From: Actinomycetes bacterium
GTDB lineage: Bacteria; Actinomycetota; Thermoleophilia; BMS3ABIN01
NCBI GenBank assembly: GCA_021791195.1
Contig: JAJYXB010000004.1
Span: 62,001 to 126,000 of the forward strand
Direction of reading: 5' to 3'
DNA length: 64,000 nt
Positions 4,328 to 33,987 of this stretch are shown here, piece after piece. Below the pieces are notes generated by a model. That model was not told where the DNA came from and did no database searches. It saw only the letters and a list, made by a program, of their open reading frames with translations. Both the position numbers and the translations under genes were made by a program. Position 1 is the stretch's first letter. Every line of letters begins with the position of its first letter.

Positions 4328-5386
4328 TTATTTGCCGAGCAGCTTTTTCCGGACCAGCCGGCGCGCGCTCCTGCGTGCCATGAGGTCGACCCTGGCGCGC
4401 TCCAGCTGGCGCTTGATGGGAATGTGGTAGGGGCATTCCCGCTCGCATGCGCCGCAGTTGTCGCATGCCTCCAGGCTGGGATTGAGAGCGGCGTAGGCAT
4501 CGCGGGCCCAGTCCCAGGAGTGGTAACGGTCGAAGTACTCGTACAGGCGCAGGACCTGTTTGATGTCGATGCCCTGGGGGCAGACGACGCAGTTTTCGCA
4601 GCGCCGGCAGAAAACCTTGTAGCAACCGCGCTCGGAGGCGGCGATGGCTTCCATGATCTCGTCCCCGGTGACCTCTCCCCCAGCCTCCTCGACCGCCAGG
4701 TTCTCGTTCAGCTCGTCGAGATTGTAGGTGCCGACGATAGTGGAGTCCGGCGCCGCGCTGAAAACATAGCGCAGCGCCACCGAGGCGGTGGCCGCATAGC
4801 CGAAGACCATCGGCTTGATCGAGACAAAGCCGATGCCGCGCGACTGGATATCGGCGAGCAGGCCGGCGGCCGCCTCGCGGTCGATGAAGTTAAGCGGGAA
4901 TTCGACCACGTCGAAGGCCGCCATCTCCAGCGCCTCCAGGACCGTCTCCGGCTGGTGAGCGCTGATGCCGACATGCCGGATATAGCCGGCGTTGCGCATC
5001 TCCTCCAGCGCCTGGTAGGCGCCGCCGGGGCTCATGATCTCCCTGAGCACTCCCAGCGTCAGCACGTTGTGCAGCGAATAGACATCAATGTAATCCGTGC
5101 CAAAGTTCCTCAGGCTCTGCTCGATGTCCTTGCGCCCGTCGATCTTCTTGCGTTTGTGCGTGCTGGTGCCGAGCACTACCCCGTCACGGAAGCTTTTGAC
5201 CCCCAGGCCGATCTTGTTCTCGGAGTCGCGGTACATGCGCGAGGTGTAAAACAGGTTCATGCCGCGCTCGTGAGCGGTCTGGATGATCTGGTTGGTTTCC
5301 ATCTGGCTGATGTACTGGAAGGGGATGCCGCCCAGCCCCAGGCGGGACACCTCCAGGCCGGTATTCCCCAGCTTATGCGTCTGCAC
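4328..5386 (-). CDS. Aldo/keto reductase family protein with C-terminal ferredoxin-like [4Fe-4S] motifs; degenerate catalytic residues
   Basis: AKR fold motifs (LGNTGLEVSRLGLGGIPF, GTDYIDVYSLHNV) plus CRRCENCVVCPQG and CDNCGACERECPYHIP. Start moved from 5485 to GTG at 5386, preceded by GGAGG with 6-nt spacing. Confidence 0.85.
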   Translation of the reverse strand: MQTHKLGNTGLEVSRLGLGGIPFQYISQMETNQIIQTAHERGMNLFYTSRMYRDSENKIGLGVKSFRDGVVLGTSTHKRKKIDGRKDIEQSLRNFGTDYIDVYSLHNVLTLGVLREIMSPGGAYQALEEMRNAGYIRHVGISAHQPETVLEALEMAAFDVVEFPLNFIDREAAAGLLADIQSRGIGFVSIKPMVFGYAATASVALRYVFSAAPDSTIVGTYNLDELNENLAVEEAGGEVTGDEIMEAIAASERGCYKVFCRRCENCVVCPQGIDIKQVLRLYEYFDRYHSWDWARDAYAALNPSLEACDNCGACERECPYHIPIKRQLERARVDLMARRSARRLVRKKLLGK

Positions 5387-6437
5387 TGCCAGCCTCCGCC
5401 TGTTCACCGGCATGCGCCGGCGCGCCGCTATCAGCGTTTTGGGACACCTGGGCGTTTTGGGACGCCTGGGGCGCCGTGCCGTCATCCGGCAGGCGCTTGA
5501 CCGCGTAGGCGGTCATCGCGGGCGACCAGCTGCTGCCGTCGATCAGGCGGCGGTAGAGCGACAGCCCCTTGACCGCCAGGCGGTCCGCCAGCGTCGGCGC
5601 ATGCACCACGTCATTGCCGCGCCCCAGCCGCCGCTGCTTGAAGTATTGCCAGTTCATCTGCAGGTAGTAGAGCGGCGCCTCGTAGACCACTTCCGAGACG
5701 CAGAAACCGGATGCCGCCAGCAGCCGCGCCAGGTTGGCGCGGTCAAAGCTGAACAGATGCCGCGGCGCCTCGTAGATGAACCAGTCCTCGCCCAGCAGGC
5801 GCGCTTCGGGCGCGGCGGCGTTCTGCGTATAGATCACCAGCAGCGCCTGCTCACCGGTGATGCGGGCGATCTCGCGGATAGTGCGGCTGGGGCTCTGCAC
5901 GTGCTCAAGCACCCCCCAGAGCGTCACCACATCGAAGGCGCCATCCTCGAAGCCGGCGTCCTCCAGCTCGCCAGCCCGGGCGTCGATGCCCAGGTCGTCG
6001 CGGGCGATGGCCACCATCTTCTCATTGTAGTCGACCCCGGATACGTCCCAGCCGTTCTCCTTCATGTAGTAGAGGAAGGAGCCGTCGCCGAAACCGATGT
6101 CCAGCAGCCGCCCGGGGCGCTTGTAAACTTCGATCCTGTCCCGGCGCGGGCCCAGCAGGCGGCCCAGCTCGTCCAGGCCGCGGTCCTTCAGCCCCGCCGC
6201 CTTGTTGTAAAGATCGTAATCCTCCTGGGGATAAAAACGCGCCATCTCTGCAAACGAGGGCCGCGGGCTGATGAACACCAGGCCGCAGTCCTGGCACTTC
6301 AGCAGCGGGAAAGAACCCTCGATGCCGAAGAGTCGGTCCCGGCCGGCGAACAGCAGCTCGTGATGCACGCCGCCGCAAACGTCGCAGACCGTCGCCGGCG
6401 GGGCGTTTCCTTCTCTGACGGCCGGGCTCATTTCCAC
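5373..6437 (-). CDS. Class I SAM-dependent methyltransferase with N-terminal zinc ribbon
   Basis: CDVCGG...CQDCGLVFISPRPS zinc ribbon; LLDIGFGDGSFLYYMKENGWDVSGVD motif I; WGVLEHV; APRHLFSFD. Confidence 0.9.
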   Translation of the reverse strand: MEMSPAVREGNAPPATVCDVCGGVHHELLFAGRDRLFGIEGSFPLLKCQDCGLVFISPRPSFAEMARFYPQEDYDLYNKAAGLKDRGLDELGRLLGPRRDRIEVYKRPGRLLDIGFGDGSFLYYMKENGWDVSGVDYNEKMVAIARDDLGIDARAGELEDAGFEDGAFDVVTLWGVLEHVQSPSRTIREIARITGEQALLVIYTQNAAAPEARLLGEDWFIYEAPRHLFSFDRANLARLLAASGFCVSEVVYEAPLYYLQMNWQYFKQRRLGRGNDVVHAPTLADRLAVKGLSLYRRLIDGSSWSPAMTAYAVKRLPDDGTAPQASQNAQVSQNADSGAPAHAGEQAEAGSADA

Positions 6438-18850: not shown

Positions 18851-19936
18851 TTATTTTTCCCCGATCAGAACGATCTCTTCACCGGCGGCCGGCCTGAGCT
18901 TGAGCGCGGCCCATTCCACCACCTGCAGCCCCTTGGCCCCGAGCCGGTCGCTCATCGATACCCGGCCGCCCTGCTCGAAGTGGCCCGTGCGGCTGATCGC
19001 CCTGTCGCTGAAATAAAGCGAGCTGGCATGGCGGATTGTCGTAAGCGCGCTGATCTTGCCGAACCCGGCCTGCTCAGCCAGCCGGCGGAACGAAGGCATC
19101 GAAAAGACATACAGGTGCCGGGGCGAGTCCATGAACATCAGGTCGGCGTGGCGGAAGACCCGGTGCCCCCAGCTCTCGATATTGGGCGTGATGAACACAA
19201 ACCTTCCTCCAGGCTTGAGGATCCGATGGACCTCCTTAAGCAGGCTGACCGGATCGAAGACGTGCTCGATGACATGGTTGGAGATCACTGCGTCGAAATG
19301 GTTTTCGGGGAAATCCTGATCCTCGAGAACGCCCAGGCTGACCTTGAGGCCGCGGCTCATGGCATTCTTGCGTGCCTCGGGATCGCGGTCGACGCCTTCC
19401 GCCTGCCAGCCGAGGGCGTTCATGATCTCCAGCTGCTGGCCGCCGCCGCTGCCGATCTCCAGCAGCTTGCCGCCGGGGTTAGCCGGCAGGTAGAAGACTT
19501 TTGAGTCCAGTGACGCGCGCCAGCCGGGATGCAGGTACGCCAGATGGCCGATCAGGCCGGCGCGGCCGCCCTGGATGCCGCCATAATAACCGTAGCGGTT
19601 TTTCCAGTATTGCTTGCGGACCAGGCCGTACATCCGCTGTGCGAGGCTGCCGGACCGTTCATCCTGCTCGATCCAGCGCGCCGCGGCCGTGCCGTGATGG
19701 GTGAAGTAATCCCTGTAGGCCAGAGCGATGTCCTCCTCCAGCGGCATCGGATCCAGCCAGACCAGGCGGCAGTCGGGGTTGGTGCACTTGCGCGAGCTCC
19801 ACTTGCCAGGAGCCCCGAAAAAGGCGTCGACCAGGTCGCGGTAGAAGACGGTCCCGCTGGAACCGCAGACCGGACAGGCAGGACAGGGCCTGGTCCTGAT
19901 TTCCTCTCCCTGGGTTATTTTTTCCGTCGCTGACAT
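18851..19936 (-). CDS. Class I SAM-dependent methyltransferase with N-terminal zinc ribbon
   Basis: CPVCGSS...CTNPDCRLVWLDPMP; LLEIGSGGGQQLEIMNALGWQAEGVD; SNHVIEHVFDP; SPRHLYVFS. Confidence 0.9.
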   Translation of the reverse strand: MSATEKITQGEEIRTRPCPACPVCGSSGTVFYRDLVDAFFGAPGKWSSRKCTNPDCRLVWLDPMPLEEDIALAYRDYFTHHGTAAARWIEQDERSGSLAQRMYGLVRKQYWKNRYGYYGGIQGGRAGLIGHLAYLHPGWRASLDSKVFYLPANPGGKLLEIGSGGGQQLEIMNALGWQAEGVDRDPEARKNAMSRGLKVSLGVLEDQDFPENHFDAVISNHVIEHVFDPVSLLKEVHRILKPGGRFVFITPNIESWGHRVFRHADLMFMDSPRHLYVFSMPSFRRLAEQAGFGKISALTTIRHASSLYFSDRAISRTGHFEQGGRVSMSDRLGAKGLQVVEWAALKLRPAAGEEIVLIGEK

Positions 19937-19964
19937 GGTGATGGGTACATGATAGCGGAAGCGC

Positions 19965-21497
19965 CTAGCGATAGCCTCGCAAAGCTCCGATCTGCGAGCC
20001 GATCCGCCGGAACCGCCGCGTGCGCCCCAGCCGCTGCATCAGCCGCCACTCGAGCGGCAGGCCGTAAAAGTCGAACCGGCAACGCAGCAGCGCCAGCCAG
20101 TGCAGCGGGTAAAGCAGCGGCTTCCACCTCATCCGCGACAGCCGCATGCGCATCTGTCTGCCGGGGTAGGCGAAGGGGAAATAAAAGTTGTTGCAGCGCT
20201 CCACCATGTCCTTCTCCGCCGCGGTGATCCAGGTGGTGCTGATGCTGGTCGACTCCCACTCGGCCCACTCTTCGGTCTTTTTCGGCAGAGGCAGCCGCAG
20301 GCTGAGGGCGATGTCATAGACCGGCGTGCCGGGATATGGGGTGACATAGAAAGTGACGGTCACTATCTCGGGATGGCGGCGGCGCATCTCCTTGATCAGC
20401 ATCAGCGTCAGCCAGATCTCGTTCTTTGCCTCGGGCAGCGCCTTGGGGAAGCCGACCATGAAGGCATAGCATCCCTGCACACCGGCCGCTTCCAGATTCA
20501 CGTTGGAACGGATGGCCTTCTCCGGCGACGTGCGCTTGTCGATCAGGTCCAGGATCGCCTGCGAGCCCGACTCAATGCCGATGCCGATCTGCGCGCAGCG
20601 GGTCTGCATAAGCAGCGCCGAGATCTCCGGCGTGATCTTTTCCATCTGGTCGGCGCGGGCGGCTCCGCTCCAGGTCATGCGCAGGCCGCGCTCGAGCCAC
20701 AGGGTCATGATCTCCTTCATCCGCTTCATGCTGGCGAACTGGTTGGAATCGGAGAAGGTGACGTGGTCCAGGCGGTAGCGGCGGCTGAGCGCCTCGATCT
20801 CGTCCACCACCTGCTCCGCGTTGCGGCCGCTCCACTTGCCGAACACTTTCGGCTCCACGCAGAAGGTGCACTTGAAGGGGCAACCCTGGCTGGAGACGAA
20901 CTGCAGCGCCCGGCGGCCGCCGTTCAGGCGGAAGAACTTCTCCATGTCCAGCAGCTCGTAGGGCGCCGGCGGGAAGCTGCTGACGTCGGCCATCGGCCGG
21001 TCAGGATTGCTGACCACCGCCCCGGCCGCGTCCCGGAATGTGACGCCGGCAAGACCCGTGAAACCTTCGCCGGCCTCGAGCCGGGAGACGATCTCCCGGA
21101 AAGAGACTTCGCCCTGGCCGCGCACGACGGCGTCCACATATGGCTCGCCGGCGGTCAGCTCCGGCAGCAGCGACGGATGATAACCGCCCCAGACGATGGG
21201 GAGGTCCGGATGGCGCTGTTTCAGCAGGCGCGAGAAATGGATCGAGCGTTTCAGCTGAAAGCCGGTGATGGTGCTGACACCGACGCACAGCGCCCCCTCT
21301 GCCGCCGCCAGCAGGTCACGCTCCGGATCGTCGTGCAGCCGCTCGTCGATCAGGACCACCTCGTAGCCATCCGCATGCAGCGGAGCGGCCACGGCCAGGA
21401 TCGAGAGCGGTATCTCCAGCGAGTAGTCTCCTACTTCAAGCGGCTGGGGAAACAGCAGAACGATCCTGGGCTTTGAGGTGTGAGGCATGCTTGACAA
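19965..21497 (-). CDS. B12-binding-domain radical SAM protein
   Basis: GVSTITGFQLKRS, WGGYHPSLLPELT, SSQGCPFKCTFCVEPKVFGKWSGRNAEQVVDEI. Confidence 0.9.
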   Translation of the reverse strand: MSSMPHTSKPRIVLLFPQPLEVGDYSLEIPLSILAVAAPLHADGYEVVLIDERLHDDPERDLLAAAEGALCVGVSTITGFQLKRSIHFSRLLKQRHPDLPIVWGGYHPSLLPELTAGEPYVDAVVRGQGEVSFREIVSRLEAGEGFTGLAGVTFRDAAGAVVSNPDRPMADVSSFPPAPYELLDMEKFFRLNGGRRALQFVSSQGCPFKCTFCVEPKVFGKWSGRNAEQVVDEIEALSRRYRLDHVTFSDSNQFASMKRMKEIMTLWLERGLRMTWSGAARADQMEKITPEISALLMQTRCAQIGIGIESGSQAILDLIDKRTSPEKAIRSNVNLEAAGVQGCYAFMVGFPKALPEAKNEIWLTLMLIKEMRRRHPEIVTVTFYVTPYPGTPVYDIALSLRLPLPKKTEEWAEWESTSISTTWITAAEKDMVERCNNFYFPFAYPGRQMRMRLSRMRWKPLLYPLHWLALLRCRFDFYGLPLEWRLMQRLGRTRRFRRIGSQIGALRGYR

Positions 21498-21575
21498 TCT
21501 GACCTTGTTGTTAGGTTATCCGGTAAACTCCGCCGGAGCGCCGCGCTCCGCCCCCCCGCCGGAGATGCAGACCGC

Positions 21576-23450
21576 TTAGTCGATGAAACTCCGGTGCCAC
21601 AGCTCGAAGATGAGCAGCATCCAGACCTGCCAGACGCCCTTGCCGGTCCGCTCGTGGCGCTCGATGAACGACTTAAGCCCCGGCACGTCGAAGTAGCCGC
21701 GGCTGAGCGCCTGCTCCGAAAGGAGGATGTCCCTGGCCTCGCGTTTCAGATGACCCTGCAGCCAGGGGGTCACCGGCGCGGCAAAACCCGACTTGTCGCG
21801 GTAGATGGTGTCATGCTTGAGGATGCCCTCCCCCATCTTCTTGAGGATGTACTTCGACTCGGTCCCCTTGAGCACGGCGTCATCGGAGAGGCTGCAGGCG
21901 AACTCGACGAAATGATGGTCCAGGAACGGCGTCCGCGCTTCCACGCCGAAAGCGGAGCAGGTGCGGTCGAGGATGCGCAGCATATTGGGCATCATGTTCT
22001 TCATGTCCAGATACATCATCCGGTCGATGGTGGTCGCCGCCGGCGCGGATGCAAATCCATTGAGATAATGTTCTTCCGTGGTATAACCACCCAGATCCTG
22101 TTTCAGCCTGGCGGAGAAGAGCTTTTCCTTCTCGTGCGGCGCGAACGTGCTGGCCACCCGCAGCGCCCGCTGGCCAGAGGACTTGCCCACCTCCAGGAAC
22201 AGCCGCTTCAACGGTTTGGGGCCGTAAAAATCTTTCATCTCCCGCACCTCGGCGATCGCCATCGCCAGCCGCAGCCGCTTCAGAGCCTCGCTGAACCGGT
22301 CGGCGATCTGCGACATGATGTAGCGGTTGTAGCCGGCCAGCAGCTCGTTGGAGCCCTGGCCGCCGAGGATCACCTTCACGAAACGGGCGGTGAACTCGTT
22401 GAGGACGTAAAAGGAATGGATGCCGGGGCTGACGGTGGGCTCGTCCACATGCCAGATCACCGTCTTCATGGTGTCGGTGAAGGTCTCCGGGTCCGGATAG
22501 ACCTCGACGGTCTTGTGGACCACGCCCGCCTTCTCCGCCGCCATCAGCGCATAGTTGCGCTCGTCGTAATCCTGCTCGCGAAAGCCGGCCGAGAGCGTGA
22601 TCAGCCGGTCGCGGTCCATGTCCGCCGCCAGCGAGGTGATGAAGCTGGAGTCGATGCCGCCGCTCAGGTGGATGCCCAGTGGCTTTACATCCGCCGCCTC
22701 GAGCTCCACTGCTTCCTTCAGGATCGCCCGGCCCTGTTCCACCAGCTGCGCCTCGTCCCAGGGATGATCCGGGGCGAAGTCCATGTCCCAGTAACGTTCA
22801 AGCCGGTTCTCGCCGTCGGCGGAGGCGATATAGATGCAGCCCGGCGGCAGCGCCATGACGTCATCAAAAATCGTCTCACCGTCAAAAATGTACGAGAGGC
22901 CGAAAAAGTCGCTCATCGCCCGGAAGTTAACCCGGCGCTTGACAGCGGGGTCGGCGAGGACGGCCTTGATCTCGGAACCGAACAGGAGCCGGTCGGCGGT
23001 GCGGGTGTAGTACAGCGGCTTGACGCCGATGCGGTCGCGGCCCAGCAGCAGCCGGCGGCGGCGGTCATCCCAAAGGGCGAAGCCGTACATGCCGTTGACC
23101 CGCTCCAGAAAGCGCTCGCCTTCCTCCTCGTAGAGGTGGATGAGCACCTCGACGTCTCCGGGGCCGCTGAAGCGGTGTCCCTTCGCCTCCAGCGCCGAGC
23201 GAAGCTGGGCGTGGTTGTAGACCCGGCCGTCGCAGACAAGGGTGATGCTGCCGTCCTCGCTGGAGAGCGGCTGCGGCACGGAAACCGCTGAAGGGATCTT
23301 CAGGAAACGGTGGGCCAGGCCGGCGGCGCCCCTGATGACTTCGGCCTCGCCGTCAGGACCGCGATGGGCGATGGGAGCATGCAGCCGGCTCAGTTCCTCG
23401 CTGGTGACCGGTTCGCCTGATGTTTTCAGGATGCCAGCAATGCCGCTCAC
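21576..23450 (-). CDS. Asparagine synthetase-like protein with degenerate glutaminase domain (Ser at the Cys nucleophile position)
   Basis: SGGIDSSFITSLA PP-loop and the AsnB two-domain layout. Start placed at GTG 23450 (M-S-G-I-A-G-I-L), preceded by GGAGG with 11-nt spacing, rather than the longer ORF start at 23537. Confidence 0.88.
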   Translation of the reverse strand: MSGIAGILKTSGEPVTSEELSRLHAPIAHRGPDGEAEVIRGAAGLAHRFLKIPSAVSVPQPLSSEDGSITLVCDGRVYNHAQLRSALEAKGHRFSGPGDVEVLIHLYEEEGERFLERVNGMYGFALWDDRRRRLLLGRDRIGVKPLYYTRTADRLLFGSEIKAVLADPAVKRRVNFRAMSDFFGLSYIFDGETIFDDVMALPPGCIYIASADGENRLERYWDMDFAPDHPWDEAQLVEQGRAILKEAVELEAADVKPLGIHLSGGIDSSFITSLAADMDRDRLITLSAGFREQDYDERNYALMAAEKAGVVHKTVEVYPDPETFTDTMKTVIWHVDEPTVSPGIHSFYVLNEFTARFVKVILGGQGSNELLAGYNRYIMSQIADRFSEALKRLRLAMAIAEVREMKDFYGPKPLKRLFLEVGKSSGQRALRVASTFAPHEKEKLFSARLKQDLGGYTTEEHYLNGFASAPAATTIDRMMYLDMKNMMPNMLRILDRTCSAFGVEARTPFLDHHFVEFACSLSDDAVLKGTESKYILKKMGEGILKHDTIYRDKSGFAAPVTPWLQGHLKREARDILLSEQALSRGYFDVPGLKSFIERHERTGKGVWQVWMLLIFELWHRSFID

Positions 23451-23695
23451 AGGCTGAAGCGCCTCCGGCGGATGAAATAAAGCAGACGTTGTGATGCAAA
23501 GCTCATCAGATACCTTCGCTAAAAAAGATCCGGACAAAAAAACATTCTGACAGGACAGGCAGGCCCGCCAGAGCTCAACAATGATTTTACACTAAAATTC
23601 GCGGCAGGCGAGAGCGCGTAATTGCGCCGCGAACATGATCGGCAGCGGCGGCGGCAGTCATGAGAAAAACGGCGGCCGGAAGGCCGCGCAGGGGC

Positions 23696-24820
23696 TCAGC
23701 GATATGTCTTCGTGCGCCGGTCCTTGCCGACCAGATGGGTGCCGGAGAGCATCGCTTTGCCCATGCCCTTCACCGACTTTGGCAGCACTTTTGACATCAG
23801 AAAGGCGACGTGGGGATTCTTGCCCCGCCAGACAAAGTTGCATTCGCGGCAGAGATCCAGCTCCTGGTAGCGGCCGTTGGCGTGCTTGTCGCGGTAGTGC
23901 TGCAGCCGGTCGCTGTTCCAGATATCCATGATCGATTCGCGGTTGAGATCGCCGAGGATGTCGTGGCCGTTGAGATCGGCGGCGCAGCCGACCACACGGC
24001 CGTCCCAGCCGATGCTCATCGTCCCCCACAGGACCATGCAGGGATAATAATAGTCGCCGGTGGTCACCTGCGGCACCACGTGCTTGACCTCGCCGCGCCA
24101 GGCGTGGGGATGGATCACCTTGATGACGTCCACCGGCAGGCCGTCAAAGCGGCGCCGGAAGTGTTCGCTGACACAGAGCTCGCCGGCCTCCATGCTCCCG
24201 CGCCCGTAGCCATCTCCGCTGCCGTGATGACCATCGCCATTTACGGCCGCCGCCGGCTCCGCTTCCTTCTTGACGATCTTGAGCGTCACATGCGGCGTCT
24301 CGGTCCCTCGCTCGGCCTTCAGCCGCAGGAAGGTGCGGATGTTCTCCACCACCTGATCAAAATCGGCGCCGCGCCGCATGTCGTTGTAGGTCTCGGCATC
24401 CTCGCCGTCGAAGCTCACGCCCAGGAAGGCCAGCCCGGCATCGAGCAGCTGGCGGGATTTCTCCTCCGTGAGCAGCATGCCGTTGGTGTGCAGCCGCGAT
24501 TCCATGCCGGAAACGGTGGCGTACTCGATCATGTAGGGCAGTTCCGGGTGGAGCAGGGGCTCGCCGGCGAGGAAATGGGCGACTTCATGGATGTTGAGCG
24601 AAGCGGCCTCATCGACGATCTTCTCATAGAGGCCCAGGTCCATGTAGCCGGGCTTGCGGGAATAGTTGTACGAACAGAGCTGGCAGCGGATATTGCAGTA
24701 ACTGGTGGGCTCGATATTGATATAGAACGGGCCTGTGGGAGTGACGCTTTTTTTGCGGAGCCAGTGGTAGCGCCAGCGATACTGGGCGACTCCAAAAGGC
24801 AATCTCCTACTTACCGCCAT
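23696..24820 (-). CDS. Radical SAM/SPASM domain protein
   Basis: NIEPTSYCNIRCQLCSYNYSR; HTNGMLLTEEKSRQLLDAGLAFLGVSFDG; C-terminal LCRECNFVWRGK. Confidence 0.88.
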   Translation of the reverse strand: MAVSRRLPFGVAQYRWRYHWLRKKSVTPTGPFYINIEPTSYCNIRCQLCSYNYSRKPGYMDLGLYEKIVDEAASLNIHEVAHFLAGEPLLHPELPYMIEYATVSGMESRLHTNGMLLTEEKSRQLLDAGLAFLGVSFDGEDAETYNDMRRGADFDQVVENIRTFLRLKAERGTETPHVTLKIVKKEAEPAAAVNGDGHHGSGDGYGRGSMEAGELCVSEHFRRRFDGLPVDVIKVIHPHAWRGEVKHVVPQVTTGDYYYPCMVLWGTMSIGWDGRVVGCAADLNGHDILGDLNRESIMDIWNSDRLQHYRDKHANGRYQELDLCRECNFVWRGKNPHVAFLMSKVLPKSVKGMGKAMLSGTHLVGKDRRTKTYR

Positions 24821-24993
24821 CAGGCTGCTCCGAATCTCACGCCTGCTTCCCCCGATTCTGTCGTAAGCCAGAAACCCTTGACTGGAGAGCTCTCCGTGCG
24901 TTCGCTCCAGGTCCTCCTATACCTCCAAATCAGGCACTTCAAACCGCGGCAAAACTATAACTAAAAGAGAGGTCTTGCAACCCCATTTGAAAA

Positions 24994-26532
24994 TCAACTG
25001 TAAAACTGCGAGATCAGGAAGGGATCCCGGCTGCCCATGGCGCGCGCCACCAGTTTGGCCAGGTGCCATTCCACGGGCAGATTGTAAACATCCCTCTTGA
25101 CCCGCACCCGCGCGAGCCGCTGCATGACAGAAAACGGCAGCCGCATCATTCCGGACCCCAGGTTCTTCTGCACGCGCTCGTCCGGATAGGCGATCGGGAA
25201 GTAAAAGGTGCTGCAACGCTCGATGAAATCCTTCTCCTGCTCCGACACCCAGGGGGTGGTGACGCTGGTGAAGCCGAAGTCAGACCAGCCTTCAAGCGTG
25301 GCGGGCGCGCTGAAGCCCATTTTCAGGGCGTAAGGGAAGAGCGGCGAGCCGGGATAAGGCGCGTAGTAGCAGATGGGCGTCTTGATCTCCGCGAAGATCG
25401 ATTTGACTGTCTTGGCGGCGGCGACCGTGCGCATCATCTCCTCCCGGCGCGAGTCCCGTTCGAGCGGGAAGCCCACCATGAAGCTGAAAATGCCCCCCAC
25501 GCCGTTGTCTCTCATTTTTCGGGAGCACTCATAGATCTCCTCCACGGTGATGCGCTTGTCGATCATGGAGAGGATCTCCGGCGAGCCGGACTCCGCCCCC
25601 ACGCCCAGCGAGCGGCAGCCGCTGTCGCGGATGAGCTTCCAGAGTTCATCATCAAACTTAAGCACCTGATCAACGCGCGCGACGGCGCTCCACTGGATGC
25701 GGACGCCGGCGTCGAGCATGCCCCGCAGGATCTCCCGCGACCGTTTGAGGCTGACGAAGAAATTGGGATCGATGAAGGTCAGATGGTCGAGACGGTAATC
25801 CGCCACCAGCGCGGCGACGTCACGCACCACCTGATCGGCCGAGCGCCCCAGCCATTTGCGCTTGTTGACCAGCGGTTCGGCGCAAAAACCGCAGTTGAAG
25901 GGACAGCCGGTGCTGGAGAGGTACTGCAGCGAGCGGAAACCGGGGCTGTTGCGGATGATGATCTTCTCGATGTCCAGCAGCTCGTAGGGCAGCGGCGGCA
26001 GCTGAGCCAGATCCACCGGCGGCCGGGCCGGATTGCTGAGCATCCTGCCGGAGGCGTCCTTGTAGCTGACCCCCGCGACGCCGCTCAAGTCCTGGCCGCC
26101 CTCCAGCCGCCGGACCACCTCGACGAAGCCAAGCTCGCCCTGACCCCGCACGACGGCGTCGACATAATCTTCCGCCAGCGTCTGCTCCGGCATGATCGAG
26201 GGATGGTAGCCGCCCCAGATGATCGGCATCCCGGGGAAGCGCCGGCGGACGAAACGGGCGTACTCGATGGCGCCGCGCAGCTGGTTGCCGGTCATGCTGC
26301 TGATGCCCAGGCAGATGGCGCCCCGGCAGGCCTCGGTGAAGCGCGCGTCCAGATCGTCCTCGATGCCTTCGTAGATCAGCACCGGCTCGTAGCCGGCGGC
26401 CCGCAGCGGCCCGGCCAGCGCCAGGATCGACATCGGGAATCCCGGGGACGCCGCAGCTGGCGCCTTGTCGTTCCCCCGCACCGGATCGGGGAAGAAAAGC
26501 ACCACTTTTTTGGTTTTTGTTTCGTTCATCAA
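24994..26532 (-). CDS. B12-binding-domain radical SAM protein
   Basis: GISSMTGNQLRGA, WGGYHPSIMPEQT, SSTGCPFNCGFCAEPLVNKRKWLGRSADQVVRDV. Confidence 0.9.
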   Translation of the reverse strand: MMNETKTKKVVLFFPDPVRGNDKAPAAASPGFPMSILALAGPLRAAGYEPVLIYEGIEDDLDARFTEACRGAICLGISSMTGNQLRGAIEYARFVRRRFPGMPIIWGGYHPSIMPEQTLAEDYVDAVVRGQGELGFVEVVRRLEGGQDLSGVAGVSYKDASGRMLSNPARPPVDLAQLPPLPYELLDIEKIIIRNSPGFRSLQYLSSTGCPFNCGFCAEPLVNKRKWLGRSADQVVRDVAALVADYRLDHLTFIDPNFFVSLKRSREILRGMLDAGVRIQWSAVARVDQVLKFDDELWKLIRDSGCRSLGVGAESGSPEILSMIDKRITVEEIYECSRKMRDNGVGGIFSFMVGFPLERDSRREEMMRTVAAAKTVKSIFAEIKTPICYYAPYPGSPLFPYALKMGFSAPATLEGWSDFGFTSVTTPWVSEQEKDFIERCSTFYFPIAYPDERVQKNLGSGMMRLPFSVMQRLARVRVKRDVYNLPVEWHLAKLVARAMGSRDPFLISQFYS

Positions 26533-26580
26533 TGAATGTTCTCTGTTGCCGGGCGGATTTTTTCCGTCCGGCCCTCCGGT

Positions 26581-28008
26581 TCAGAGAATGTCGCTCGGCG
26601 AAATCCTGCGCTCCACCTTGCGGTAGAGCTTCCAGGCGTAATAGGCGGGCGTACTGCGTTCGCAGACGTTTATCAGCGGCCGCCAGCGCGGGTCCTTGCT
26701 GCCGAAATAACTGACCAGCCCCCGCAGCCGCACCAGCTGCTCGCGCGGCAGGCCCGGCAGAGACAGCGGCGTGTCCTCCCAGCAGTTGGGCGCTTCGGTC
26801 TGCTCGACCGCCATCATTCCTTCCCGCACGGCCACATCATAAAACGGCGTGCCTTTAAAGGGATAGCAGAGCGTCAGCATGTAATGGTCCAGCCCCAGGC
26901 CGCGCAGCTCCTGGATGAGGTCCAGCGTGCGGTCGATGTTCTGGCGCGTCTCATGCGGCATACCCATGACAAAGAAGCCGAACAGTTTGATGCCGTGACG
27001 GGAGATGATGGCGACGGCTTCCTTCACCTGCTCCTGGCTGTAGTTGCGGTTGAGGTGTTCGCGGCGGTAGGCGGGGTCGCCGGACTCGATGCCCAGGCCG
27101 ATGACGCTGGCGCCGGCGGCCGCGACCATGGCGATGCGCTCCTCGGTGACCGTCTCCGGCCGCGTCGTGAAGCGGAACGGCAGGTTAACCTCACGCACCC
27201 AGCGGTCGCAGAATTCCCGGATGCGGTCGTCGCGCAGCAGGAACGTCTCGTCGATGAAATTGACATAATCGAGACCAAAACGTTCTTTTTTGTCAATCAC
27301 CTCGGCAATGATGCGGCCGACTGATTTCTCGCGATGGTATTTCCCCTTGCCCTTGTAGAGCTGGTGCAGCGTCGGGCTGATGCAGTACGGGCAGGCGTAG
27401 GGGCAGCCGCGGCTGGTCTCCAGAGCGCCGATGCGGCCGACGTCGCCGGCGAAGATCCGCGAATGTGAATCGATGAAGTGGCGCCGGTCCCAGATGTCCC
27501 AGTCCGGTAGTGGCAGCGAGTCGAGATCCTGATTCAGCAGCCGCACCCCGTTACGGCTGATCCCGCCGGGAGTGCGGGCCCAGACGCCGCCGATGGCACT
27601 GGTGCCGCCGCCTTCCTCCAGCGCCGCCACCAGCTCCAGCAGCGCCTCCTCCCCTTCCCCCCTGACAAGGAAATCGATCGCCGGTTCGCGCATCACCTCT
27701 TCCGGCGCCGCGGTGGGATGGGGCCCGCCCACGACCACCGGCAGCCTGGACGAAGCCAGCACCGGCAGCAGCGCCGCGCGCACGAAGTCCCATTCGAAGG
27801 AGCGGATGGAGATCCCCACCAGCCCCGGCTGGAACGACTCCAGCCGCGCGGCGAGAATGTCCGGGGCCGCGGCCAGGTCGATGTAGGTGCAGTCGAGCAG
27901 CTCGACCTCGTGACCGGCGGCCTTGAGGCATGCGGACAGCTGGCTCAGGCCCACCTGCGGCAGGGCGGCGTTCTGCTCGATGTTCGGATAGACGAGGAGG
28001 GTCCTCAC
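26581..28008 (-). CDS. B12-binding-domain radical SAM protein
   Basis: VGLSQLSACLKAAGHEVELLDCTY, VVGGPHPTAAPEEVMREPAIDFLVRGEGE, TSRGCPYACPYCISPTLHQLY. Start trimmed from 28152 to GTG 28008 (VRTLLVYPNIEQN). Confidence 0.85.
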   Translation of the reverse strand: MRTLLVYPNIEQNAALPQVGLSQLSACLKAAGHEVELLDCTYIDLAAAPDILAARLESFQPGLVGISIRSFEWDFVRAALLPVLASSRLPVVVGGPHPTAAPEEVMREPAIDFLVRGEGEEALLELVAALEEGGGTSAIGGVWARTPGGISRNGVRLLNQDLDSLPLPDWDIWDRRHFIDSHSRIFAGDVGRIGALETSRGCPYACPYCISPTLHQLYKGKGKYHREKSVGRIIAEVIDKKERFGLDYVNFIDETFLLRDDRIREFCDRWVREVNLPFRFTTRPETVTEERIAMVAAAGASVIGLGIESGDPAYRREHLNRNYSQEQVKEAVAIISRHGIKLFGFFVMGMPHETRQNIDRTLDLIQELRGLGLDHYMLTLCYPFKGTPFYDVAVREGMMAVEQTEAPNCWEDTPLSLPGLPREQLVRLRGLVSYFGSKDPRWRPLINVCERSTPAYYAWKLYRKVERRISPSDIL

Positions 28009-28051
28009 TTGATGCTGGCCCCCATGGTTGGTGATATCCGCCTGGCGAGAA

Positions 28052-29953
<1,902 letters not shown>

Positions 29954-29956
29954 GGG

Positions 29957-31369
29957 CTAGCCCCTCACCATCGATCTGATCTCCGACGGCCGTATGGCCC
30001 CGGTAGCCAGGACCGCAATGGCGTAAGCTCCCAGCCCCGCGACGGCCGCCAGCCAGACGTTGACCGGCAGCAGGATCAGGGCCACCGCTCCCATGACGAT
30101 GCCGCCGGCCAGCGGCCGCAGCAGCAGCGGATAGACCCAGCGCTTCATGAAATGACGCCTCACCTGCAGATGGATGTAGATCCCCTGGACCGTCACCGAT
30201 CCCAGCGACGCCAGCGCGGCGCCATTGCCGCCCAGCGCCGGGATGAGCGCCAGGCTCAGCAGCGCCGTGGTCACCGCGCCGAGCACCAGCCCGTTGGCCG
30301 CCAGGCGCTGGCGGTCGCTCGCCTGCAGGATGTTGATGTCGACCGCGTTGATCAGCATCACCGGCATGGACCAGACGAGGATGATCAGAATCGCCGCGCT
30401 GTCCTGATATCCGGCCGGGAAATGCGTCAGGATCGACCGGGCGACCAGGGTCACGAACAGCGCCAGCGGGATCCCGCCCAGCGACATCAGCCTGTACCAC
30501 TGCCAGCCGTTGCGGCGGGCAGCGTCCCGGTCGCGGCTGTAGATCTGGGTGAAGCCGGGGAAAGCCGTGGTCGAGAAGATCAGGATCACCCACACGAACG
30601 GCGAGAACAGCGTGAAGGCGATGTTGAACAAGCCCGTGGCGGTGTCGCCCTTGATGAATTCCAGGATCACCAGGTTGATGCGGTAGGAGAAAATGCTGGC
30701 GATGCCCACGATCGCAAAGGGGGCGATGATAACCAGCATCCGCCACAGCCGGGCGAGCGGAAACCGGAAGGAGAAGCCCGTGATCTTCCAGATGACCATC
30801 GCCAGCCGCAGCAGCGTCTCGATGATCACACCCCCCAGGTAGCCAGCCATGATCAGCACCACCGACCCGTGCGCCACCAGCACGGCGATGCCGAACACCA
30901 TGTAGACCAGGCGGCCGATGAACGTGAACAGGGCCGAATAAAAGAATTTCTGCGTTGCGGTGAATACCGACTCCGTGGTGGCGATGACGCTGAAGAGATA
31001 GAAGGCGGCCAGGCCCAGCAGCAGCAGCTGGAACTTGGGGTATGCGGGGTGGTAGACAAGCAGCAGCGCGACGCCAACTATCATGAATGGTACAGACGTC
31101 AAAAGCTGCAACAGCAGGATCTGGCCGGCAAGCACCTCTTTATCCTGCCAGCGGCGCACCAGCTCCCGGGCGCCGTAGCGGGTGATGCCCAGGTCGCCGA
31201 TGCCGTTGAGCATGTCCACCGTCACCAGCACGAAGGAGAGGATGCCGAACAGCGCCGGCTTCAGCTCGGTGGCGGCATAGATCACGAAAGCGGACGACAG
31301 CAGCCGCGACAGGAGTTTGAAGCCCATCAGGTAGCTGGAGTTTTTCAGGACTGTTGTAAAGTGCGACAA
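29957..31369 (-). CDS. Polysaccharide flippase (Wzx/MATE-like oligosaccharide transporter)
   Basis: Many TM segments, N-terminal SSYLMGFKLLSRLLSSAFVIYAATELKPALFGILSFVL; paralog of 32554..33987. Confidence 0.85.
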   Translation of the reverse strand: MSHFTTVLKNSSYLMGFKLLSRLLSSAFVIYAATELKPALFGILSFVLVTVDMLNGIGDLGITRYGARELVRRWQDKEVLAGQILLLQLLTSVPFMIVGVALLLVYHPAYPKFQLLLLGLAAFYLFSVIATTESVFTATQKFFYSALFTFIGRLVYMVFGIAVLVAHGSVVLIMAGYLGGVIIETLLRLAMVIWKITGFSFRFPLARLWRMLVIIAPFAIVGIASIFSYRINLVILEFIKGDTATGLFNIAFTLFSPFVWVILIFSTTAFPGFTQIYSRDRDAARRNGWQWYRLMSLGGIPLALFVTLVARSILTHFPAGYQDSAAILIILVWSMPVMLINAVDINILQASDRQRLAANGLVLGAVTTALLSLALIPALGGNGAALASLGSVTVQGIYIHLQVRRHFMKRWVYPLLLRPLAGGIVMGAVALILLPVNVWLAAVAGLGAYAIAVLATGAIRPSEIRSMVRG

Positions 31370-31382
31370 ACTGGCCGTTGCC

Positions 31383-32465
31383 TCAACCGATGTCTTTCCG
31401 TGGCCGGAGTACTTTCTTCGCCATCCGCTTCAGTCCCCGCTTGACCACCAGCGACGCCGGCGGCGTCAGCTCCCGGTGGGCATCCTTGAGCATGCGGCGG
31501 ATGGGCAGATCGTACGGGCATTTGCCCTCGCATTCGGCGCATTCCTGGCAGCTGGCGGCAGTAGCGTCCAGGGCGCGGTATTCATCCTCGATCCAGGGAT
31601 CGCGGGCAGCGTAGCGCCGGTGATAGTTCGCCATCCAGAGGATCCTGGGGATATTTAGCCCTTCGGGGCAGGGCTGGCAATATTCGCAGCGGCGGCAGAA
31701 ACCGTCACCCAGCTGCCTGGCGTTCTCCAGCAGTTCGTCCCGCTCCGCCTCCGTCAGCGGGTTGAACGCCCGCGCCGTCTTAAGGTTCGCTTCCACTTCG
31801 GCCAGGCTCTTCATCCCCACCAGCATGGCGTCGACGGCAGAGTCGAGGCTGAAGCGGATCCCCAGGCCGGGATCGTCGAGCGTGCCGCCGCAGACCGGCT
31901 TCATGGCGATGATGCCGACATCCAGCTGGCGCGCCAGCGGCATCAGTTCCGCTTCCGATTCCCGGTCAACCACATTCACGGCAGTCATCACGGTATCGAA
32001 CAGGCCGGTGCGCACCGCTTCAGTCAGGACCGAAGGACGGTGCCCGGTGACGCCGATGAAACGGACCTTGCCGTCCCGCTGCGCCTGCTTGAGCGCCTCC
32101 AGAGCGCCCCCCGGTGCCAGCACCCGGTCCAGCTCCTGGCGCGTCTTGAGACTGTGGACCTGGTAAAGATCGATATAGTCGGTTCCCAGGCGGCCCAGGC
32201 TCTGGTCGATGGCGGCCGCCATCTCCGCGGCGCTGCGGTGGGGAGACTTGGTGGCGATGACCTTGCGCTCGCGGTCATGCCTGAGAAAGCGGGCCAGCTT
32301 CTGTTCGCTGTCGCCGTAGCCCTCGGCGGTGTCGGCGAAATCGATGCCGCCGGCAAGGGAGGCGTCGATGATCAAGCGGGCCTCTTCCGGGCTCATCTTG
32401 ATCAAGGGGATGCCGCCCAGCCCGAGCCGGTATACTTCCAGATTTGTGCGTCCGAGGCGTGCCAT
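31383..32465 (-). CDS. Aldo/keto reductase with C-terminal ferredoxin-like [4Fe-4S] motifs
   Basis: LGRTNLEVYRLGLGGIPLIKM, DFADTAEGYGDSEQKL, ATKSPHR, GTDYIDLYQVHSL; CRRCEYCQPCPEG and CQECAECEGKCPYDLPI. Confidence 0.9.
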   Translation of the reverse strand: MARLGRTNLEVYRLGLGGIPLIKMSPEEARLIIDASLAGGIDFADTAEGYGDSEQKLARFLRHDRERKVIATKSPHRSAAEMAAAIDQSLGRLGTDYIDLYQVHSLKTRQELDRVLAPGGALEALKQAQRDGKVRFIGVTGHRPSVLTEAVRTGLFDTVMTAVNVVDRESEAELMPLARQLDVGIIAMKPVCGGTLDDPGLGIRFSLDSAVDAMLVGMKSLAEVEANLKTARAFNPLTEAERDELLENARQLGDGFCRRCEYCQPCPEGLNIPRILWMANYHRRYAARDPWIEDEYRALDATAASCQECAECEGKCPYDLPIRRMLKDAHRELTPPASLVVKRGLKRMAKKVLRPRKDIG

Positions 32466-32553
32466 GGGATTTCGGTGGCGCGCCGCGCGAGGACCGCGCC
32501 GGCTGCCTCTGTAAGGTTATCACAAACGCCGCAACCAGGACCGGCAGCCGCGC

Positions 32554-33987
32554 TCACCGGCGCGCTGCCGCGGCCCAGGCGCCGCAAGCCGCTCCATACG
32601 CGGCAATGCCGGCCGCCAGCGCCGCCCAAAGGCCCAGCGGCGAGGCCGCCAGCGCCGCGCCCGCCATCAGCGCGCCGCCGACCAGCGGCAGGCCGTAGGC
32701 GCCGGCAAGCCCGTGCCCCGGGGCCATTACTTCGCGCCTGAGCAGCCAGTGGACCTGAGCCAGCCACAGCGTCGTGGCCGCCACCATCGCCGCGGCGGCG
32801 CCGGTGACGCCGTAATAATGGATCAGGACCAGATCCAGCACAACAATTATCAGCGCCGTGGCAACCGTGGTCCCGGCAGCCTGGCGCTCCCGGTTGGTCA
32901 CAACCAGGGCATTGAAACCGACGGTCACCATCATCAGCGGCGGGATTGACCACATCAGCACCTGCAGCGCGATGATCGAACCGTTGAAGTCCGGCGGCAT
33001 CAGAGAGCGGATCAGCGGCCCGGCGATCACCGTCATCACGAACGCCACCGGCACGCTGGCGGCGCCCACGGCGCGCAGCCAGAACCAGTTGGCCCGCTCC
33101 GCGCCTTCCGGGTCGGTCCGGAAGCGCTCCGTCAGCCCCGGCAACAGCGTCCGCGCCAGGATGATCGGCGCCCAGACGAAAAAGGCGAAGAAAGAGTAGG
33201 CGGCGTTGTAGATGCCCACGTCGGTGTCCCCCCGCAGCACTTCCATGATCAATGTGTCCGCGCGGAAATAGACCAGCGTCGCCACGGCTGACAGGGCGAA
33301 AGGCACCGATCCGGCGATGACGGCCGACAGCTCGCCGCGGTGGAAGCCGAATGAGAACGGCGTCACCCGCCAGCCGGTGTAGGCCATGCGCAGCGCGCTC
33401 TCCACCAGGTAACCGAGCAGGAACGCCGCCGTCACGGCCACCACCGAGTACCCCAGCCGCAGCGCGGCGAAACCGGCGGCCAGGTAAACGGCGCGGCCGA
33501 CAACCGCGAACACCGCCGAGGCGCCAAACCGCCGGTAGGCGGTAAACACCGTGTCGGTGGTGAAGATGAAGGAAGAAACAAACGCCGCCGCCAGGCCCAG
33601 CAGCAGGACGTCCCGCTTCGCCGGCCCCGGCGACAGCAGCAGCAGGATAACCACCGCCGCCACGGTAAGCACGACCGACACCAGCAGCTGCAGCGTGAGG
33701 ATGATGCCGGCCAGGGAGGCGCGGCGGCTGTCCTGCCGGATGAGTTCGCGGGCGCCGTAGCGAGAAAGCCCCAGATCGCCCAGCGCCGAGAGCATCTCGA
33801 CGCTGGCCAGGGTGAAGGCGAAGGCGCCGAACAGCGAGGGACCCAGCCGGACGGCGGTATAAAGCATGAAAGGGAACGACGCCAGCCGCGCGAACAGCCG
33901 CGCCAGCAGCAGGTAGCCGGAGTGTTTCAGGACCCGGAACCGTTCGGCCGCCTCGCCGTTTTTGACAATTGACTTCACGCTTGCCAT
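32554..33987 (-). CDS. Polysaccharide flippase (Wzx/MATE-like)
   Basis: HSGYLLLARLFARLASFPFMLYTAVRLGPSLFGAFAFTLASVEMLSALGDLGLSRYGARELIR; multi-pass. Confidence 0.85.
   Translation of the reverse strand: MASVKSIVKNGEAAERFRVLKHSGYLLLARLFARLASFPFMLYTAVRLGPSLFGAFAFTLASVEMLSALGDLGLSRYGARELIRQDSRRASLAGIILTLQLLVSVVLTVAAVVILLLLSPGPAKRDVLLLGLAAAFVSSFIFTTDTVFTAYRRFGASAVFAVVGRAVYLAAGFAALRLGYSVVAVTAAFLLGYLVESALRMAYTGWRVTPFSFGFHRGELSAVIAGSVPFALSAVATLVYFRADTLIMEVLRGDTDVGIYNAAYSFFAFFVWAPIILARTLLPGLTERFRTDPEGAERANWFWLRAVGAASVPVAFVMTVIAGPLIRSLMPPDFNGSIIALQVLMWSIPPLMMVTVGFNALVVTNRERQAAGTTVATALIIVVLDLVLIHYYGVTGAAAAMVAATTLWLAQVHWLLRREVMAPGHGLAGAYGLPLVGGALMAGAALAASPLGLWAALAAGIAAYGAACGAWAAAARR

Follow-up and report, generated by a model that had tools for sequence, protein, structure and literature searches.

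The Cys-less AsnB-like protein encoded on the minus strand at positions 21576-23450 of the window (the whole stretch of 64,000 nucleotides analysed here) is, on balance, probably an ATP-dependent, glutamine-independent amide ligase of a cell-surface glycan pathway, acting on a carboxylate other than aspartate and using ammonia or another amine. This reading is based on sequence comparison. The protein, called AsnB-S in the following, comprises 624 amino acids with a GTG start and was delineated by domain matches (GATase_7, 6e-39; Asn_synthase, 2.4e-74) and by 16 orthologs. It aligns over its full length, with 37% identity, to a canonical Cys-type paralog, AsnB-C (28052-29953, minus strand), which is identified as its constant neighbour by sequence, tree and linkage. 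In the mechanism that we propose, AsnB-S would adenylate a carboxylate, probably on a sugar or glycan precursor rather than on aspartate. The acyl-adenylate would then be attacked by ammonia, either free or released by the nearby AsnB-C, or by the amine of a different molecule, and the glutaminase of AsnB-S itself would not be the ammonia source.

A GGAGG ribosome-binding site (23462-23466, minus strand; this strand applies to all coordinates within AsnB-S given below) is located 11 nt before GTG 23450, and translation from this codon yields the N-terminus M-S-G-I-A-G. The first-pass annotation had chosen this start, and both the sequence and the ortholog starts bear it out. The open frame extends up to TTG 23537. 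A start further upstream that would supply a Cys is very unlikely, since the alignment with the orthologs begins only at M-S-G, and an ATG, GTG or TTG start codon was found immediately 5' of an AGY Ser codon in 13/13 orthologs examined in the nucleotide sequence. The N-terminus reads M-S-G-[IV]-[AT]-G in 16/16 orthologs; homologs with a Cys, which the first-pass annotation had regarded as evidence against its own interpretation, did not appear among them. That the Ser results from a sequencing error, a wrong start or local degeneration can practically be dismissed. AGC and TGC differ by one base, but nothing else was found in favor of this explanation. Sequencing error and wrong start are ruled out by the presence of Ser in 16 separately assembled genomes and by the conserved start, and local degeneration by the low dN/dS together with the fixed Ser, Asp and Arg substitutions. 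The dN/dS values from YN00 were 0.019-0.062 over the whole gene for three ortholog pairs, none of which includes the window genome; on these pairs, AsnB-S is under strong purifying selection. The orthologs share on average 68% identity in their N-domains and 73% in their C-domains; for the canonical paralog, the values are 72% and 73%. Hence, the N-domain, an Ntn domain that is conserved in AsnB-S, is only slightly less constrained. Long antisense open frames cover the AsnB genes (21594-23291 and 28028-31444, plus strand), most likely as a by-product of high G+C codon usage.

The motif differences described in the first-pass annotation are all present: HRFLKI, DGRVYN and GSNELLAGY in AsnB-S stand against HRRLSI, NGEIYN and GSDELFGGY in AsnB-C. 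The SGGIDSS motif was said to be kept as well. Both paralogs are indeed canonical at this site, but AsnB-C reads SGGLDSS and is not identical. The glutamine site around Cys1 consists of Arg48/49, Val52, Asn74, Gly75, Glu76 and Asp96/98 (PMC6748925; PMC11296641). For these columns, residues were counted in the 16 AsnB-S orthologs covering the N-terminus, 15 paralogs (AsnB-C) and 28 outgroup proteins. The nucleophile Cys is replaced by Ser2 (AGC codon, 23445-23447), with Ser in 16/16 orthologs and Cys in 15/15 paralogs and 28/28 outgroup proteins. Arg49, which takes part in Gln binding, is replaced by Phe49 (23304-23306); this column contains Phe in 11, Leu in four and Tyr in one of the orthologs, but Arg in all 15 paralogs and all 28 outgroup proteins. 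At the oxyanion hole, Asn74 has been exchanged for Asp74 (23229-23231), which is Asp in 16/16 orthologs and Asn in 15 paralogs and 27 outgroup proteins, the remaining one having Val. Arg76 (23223-23225) occupies the position of Glu76 (Arg in 16/16 orthologs, Glu in all 15 paralogs and 28 outgroup proteins). Gly75 and the Asp98 column, the latter represented by the kept Gln-site residue Asp99 (23154-23156; Asp98 of AS-B), show the same residue in all three sets. Since four Gln-site positions, including the Cys, are replaced in all orthologs, and with charge reversals, glutamine-dependent glutaminase activity of AsnB-S is very unlikely. The protein very probably lacks this activity, in agreement with the loss of glutaminase function claimed beforehand.

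Instead of drifting, the pocket of the N-domain has become fixed in an altered state. This suggests a remaining function, for which the reading as a glutamine-independent ligase does not account and which therefore speaks against it. It is distinctly unlikely, but not without arguments, that the N-domain is an Ntn amidase with Ser as nucleophile, which would cleave another amide donor chosen by the reversed charges and tunnel the released amine to the synthetase site. Ser is a normal nucleophile in other Ntn hydrolases, and with Ser2, Asp74, Gly75, Arg76 and Asp99 being invariant, the pocket looks re-tooled rather than abandoned. However, an Asp at the oxyanion-hole position would disfavor the anionic tetrahedral intermediate, and to our knowledge there is no Ser-type Gln amidotransferase of the AsnB class. 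A precedent for altered donors is provided by TsnB9 and FzmA, which are thought to tunnel the amine from a glutamyl hydroxamate or hydrazide (PMC6133997). The tunnel itself speaks for both sides. Most of the tunnel positions of human ASNS (PMC11615228) are hydrophobic or canonical in AsnB-S, and this kept hydrophobic character would suit an amidase. On the other hand, the tunnel-lining position Leu255 is occupied by His261 (22668-22670), which is invariant in the orthologs and Tyr in the paralogs, and argues against it; the Ala404 position is an invariant Leu in the orthologs. With His261 and this Leu, the tunnel of AsnB-S may be closed or re-used.

In the synthetase half, the SGGIDSS PP-loop (ATP pyrophosphatase, 22644-22664), the catalytic dyad Glu369 and Tyr374 within ELLAGY (22329-22346) and the conserved catalytic Lys553 (21792-21794; K466 in human ASNS, K449 in AS-B) are intact and are kept in every AsnB-S ortholog covering them. 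The dyad was assigned via the five-residue spacing of Glu363-Tyr368 in PesC, a relative in which a Tyr-to-Phe exchange in the dyad abolishes activity (preprint PMC13060819). It is because of the retained PP-loop, dyad and Lys that adenylation of a carboxylate is proposed for the putative amide ligase. The aspartate pocket is changed: Glu364, Asp367 and Arg403 of human ASNS correspond to Gln, Asn and Ile, for which reason the acid would presumably not be aspartate. Gln365 (22356-22358), at the Glu364 position, is shared with the canonical paralog and found in 15/15 paralogs and 9/28 outgroup proteins, i.e. Gln is common here in AsnB-like enzymes. Asn368 (22347-22349), replacing Asp367 (human) or Asp351 (AS-B), is Asn in 16/16 orthologs but Asp in 43/43 others, and the position of Arg403 is Ile in AsnB-S and Thr in the canonical paralog.

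In beta-lactam synthetase, the corresponding Asp is a magnesium contact, and an effect of the Asp-to-Asn exchange on metal binding, to which the first-pass annotation had pointed, is possible. In modelled human ASNS, however, Asp367 forms a salt bridge to the alpha-amino group of the aspartyl-AMP intermediate, while water mediates the contact of Glu364 with the aspartyl-AMP carboxylate; no activity with aspartate is left in E364Q and D367A, whereas D367N retains reduced ammonia-dependent activity (PMC6748925). Owing to this role of Asp367 and the activity of D367N, the exchange points more readily to a different acid substrate than to the loss of a metal site, and we do not follow the earlier emphasis on metal. 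Gln365 and Asn368 could also mean a dead synthetase, given the inactivity of the human E364Q and D367A variants towards aspartate, although Gln is common at this position.

AsnB-C is located upstream of AsnB-S on the same strand in 13/13 genomes with both genes on one contig, at a distance of ~0.1 to 7 kb and with varying genes in between; in three further genomes the two are on different contigs. Both copies occur in every family genome with an assembled locus. This constant pairing with close same-strand linkage would also be compatible with AsnB-S being a non-catalytic or regulatory partner of AsnB-C, for example in a heterodimer, in which AsnB-C does the active chemistry, and AS-type enzymes are dimers (PMC11615228). 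Nevertheless, we consider such a role unlikely. A dead partner would be expected to lose the synthetase catalytic residues first, but PP-loop, Glu-Tyr dyad and Lys are invariant in AsnB-S. Moreover, neither the spacing of the two genes, which reaches 7 kb, nor the set of intervening genes is constant. For the partnership with the canonical paralog suggested in the first-pass annotation, the close linkage supports working alongside it and goes no further.

The segment around both genes (18851-33987, minus strand) contains, according to domain matches, a methyltransferase, B12-radical SAM and SPASM radical SAM proteins, two flippases and an aldo-keto reductase. Many B12-binding radical SAM proteins, SPASM radical SAM proteins, methyltransferases and flippases are found in the wider cluster, along with a sugar transferase, an O-antigen-ligase-type protein and glycosyltransferases. 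As annotated, the cluster holding AsnB-S is a surface polysaccharide cluster. Between 6428 and 49312 of the window, the density of ~10 B12-binding radical SAM proteins, three SPASM radical SAM proteins and several methyltransferases is unusual. Two aldo-keto reductases with a fused 4Fe-4S domain (4328-5485 and 31383-32465) are another feature repeated in the cluster and in relatives.

The window genome (G000) encodes GatB, and in the whole genome neither an AsnRS above the cut-off nor AsnA was found; both of its AsnB-like genes are located in the glycan cluster. With GatB present and no AsnRS above the cut-off, neither AsnB-like gene is needed to feed AsnRS, and protein asparagine is probably synthesized on tRNA. 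Since no free asparagine has to be supplied to an AsnRS here and the genes are located in the cluster, a role in glycan amidation is favored over asparagine supply. Several genomes of genus g6 (L089, L090, L092, L093 and L094) have an extra Cys-type AsnB-like protein (DGQGADELMAGY, W-K-V-G-F) encoded on a different contig from the locus of AsnB-S and AsnB-C.

The 16 orthologs covering the N-terminus (window copy included) and one additional partial sequence all belong to one uncultured actinobacterial family, and identities to the window copy are 67-89%. The window genome has a size of 2.15 Mb, and its relatives are MAGs of uncultured organisms that carry the labels Thermoleophilia, Gaiellales or Actinomycetes. 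AsnB-S was found in 17/19 family genomes and was not seen in G002 and G011. In G002 the ortholog of the cluster B12-radical SAM protein (89% identical) survives only as a 115-aa frame, and in G011 the canonical copy was seen as two fragments only. Because the locus is broken or fragmentary in these genomes, the missing AsnB-S genes are probably assembly gaps. Outside the family, profile searches of 399 class and 397 phylum genomes detected no S-type gene, with scores dropping from 1002-1266 bits for S-type proteins to at most 549 bits for canonical copies. The sequences inspected among the best non-family matches retain Cys and NGE, except for the N-terminus of L134 and the NGE site of L132, which were not matched by the pattern. 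In a tree calculated with a quick method without bootstraps, AsnB-S and AsnB-C each form one clade (SH-aLRT 100) and are mutual sisters (SH-aLRT 99), with stem lengths of 1.2 and 0.76, respectively. The sister clades and the longer stem of AsnB-S point to a duplication of a glycan-cluster AsnB before the family radiated, in which AsnB-S would have been born, followed by change in one copy.

A nucleophile within the substrate, leading to a lactam or macrolactam in the manner of beta-lactam synthetase, CarA and lasso cyclases, or a dehydration of the AsnB-C amide to a nitrile by AsnB-S, is quite improbable. Intramolecular amides are the products of the known Cys-less branches, and an enzyme of a second step would have no use for a nitrogen donor, while its linkage to the amide-forming paralog would be maintained. 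However, AsnB-S reaches only 258.9 with the lasso peptide cyclase model NF033535, far under the cut-off of 525, and AsnB is closer in sequence and fold than beta-lactam synthetase and CarA. In addition, Gln365 aligns with Glu348 of AS-B, and this position, which we take to correspond to Tyr348 of the Tyr-Glu dyad in beta-lactam synthetase, has no Tyr. For the nitrile, a precedent exists in AS-like PesC, which converts an acid to the amide and further to the nitrile with a second ATP (2026 preprint PMC13060819). A very improbable extension is a relay, in which AsnB-C would amidate a glycan-precursor carboxylate and AsnB-S would process either the resulting amide or, together with an unusual nitrogen nucleophile, the original acid, giving a nitrile, a hydrazide or another group. 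If true, two enzymes from one duplication would produce a group new to bacterial surface polysaccharides.

AsnB-S is a natural experiment on the loss of the nitrogen-supplying half in an amidotransferase: a single duplication predates the split of an actinobacterial family, and almost every species sampled has retained the two copies next to each other. The charge-reversed glutamine pocket and the altered acid pocket yield direct assay predictions.

A whole-length AlphaFold2 model of AsnB-S based on 35 diverse aligned proteins reached a mean pLDDT of 93 and a pTM of 0.92, whereas the quality was low (pLDDT 54) with 15 close orthologs as input. Its best match in the PDB is the hydroxyamidotransferase TsnB9 (7ylz; TM 0.76/0.82), followed by E. 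coli AS-B (1ct9; TM 0.66/0.82); human ASNS, beta-lactam synthetase and CarA rank below these two. Among family models, AsnB-S is above the cut-off for TIGR01536 (387.6 vs 267.1 bits) and below that for the XrtA/PEP-CTERM exopolysaccharide amidotransferase TIGR03108 (452.5 vs 816.9).

A second Cys-less AsnB-like protein, with Thr2, was found in a Chromatiales locus (L048:18344-20179, minus strand) with two canonical copies alongside. It keeps GGDE, and the NGE motif was not found in it. Because it shares only 25% identity with AsnB-S, retains GGDE and differs in which residues were lost, its loss of the Cys is very probably independent. Cys loss in one of several neighboring AsnB copies has thus probably occurred more than once. 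A similar protein with a degenerate N-domain was seen in the Burkholderiaceae locus L049. The L048 protein also passes TIGR01536 (269.1 vs 267.1 bits). As this model accepts proteins without most of the glutaminase site, nucleophile included, automatic naming as glutamine-hydrolysing asparagine synthase would be wrong. In the literature, nothing specific was found on Cys-less AsnB proteins in glycan clusters.

Compared with canonical AsnB (E. coli AS-B, human ASNS), AsnB-S has the same two-domain fold, PP-loop, Glu-Tyr dyad and Lys, but has neither the Cys nucleophile nor the Arg49, Asn74 and Glu76 of the Gln-hydrolysing enzymes, and its aspartate pocket is changed. By both sequence and fold, TsnB9 (7ylz) is the nearest solved structure, an AsnB scaffold with an altered nitrogen donor. 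TsnB9 transfers hydroxylamine, and for FzmA only the hydrolysis of glutamylhydrazide has been reconstituted (PMC6133997). In TsnB9, however, MCG, HRRLSI and, at the NGE site, SGE are present, where AsnB-S has MSG, FLK and DGR. Cys-less relatives of AsnB are already known: beta-lactam synthetase and the carbapenam synthetase CarA have no glutaminase activity but possess the ATP-dependent acyl-adenylation half, and their substrates are beta-amino acids with an internal amine. The likeness to beta-lactam synthetase drawn in the first-pass annotation holds for the missing glutaminase nucleophile, which is also absent from CarA. It does not extend to fold and sequence, in which AsnB-S is closer to AsnB and TsnB9, and the recognisable GATase_7 domain and the location in a glycan cluster set AsnB-S apart from both enzymes. 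Judging from these features, AsnB-S would function as an adenylating amide ligase within the AsnB superfamily, and a new, unassigned subfamily is the best place for it.
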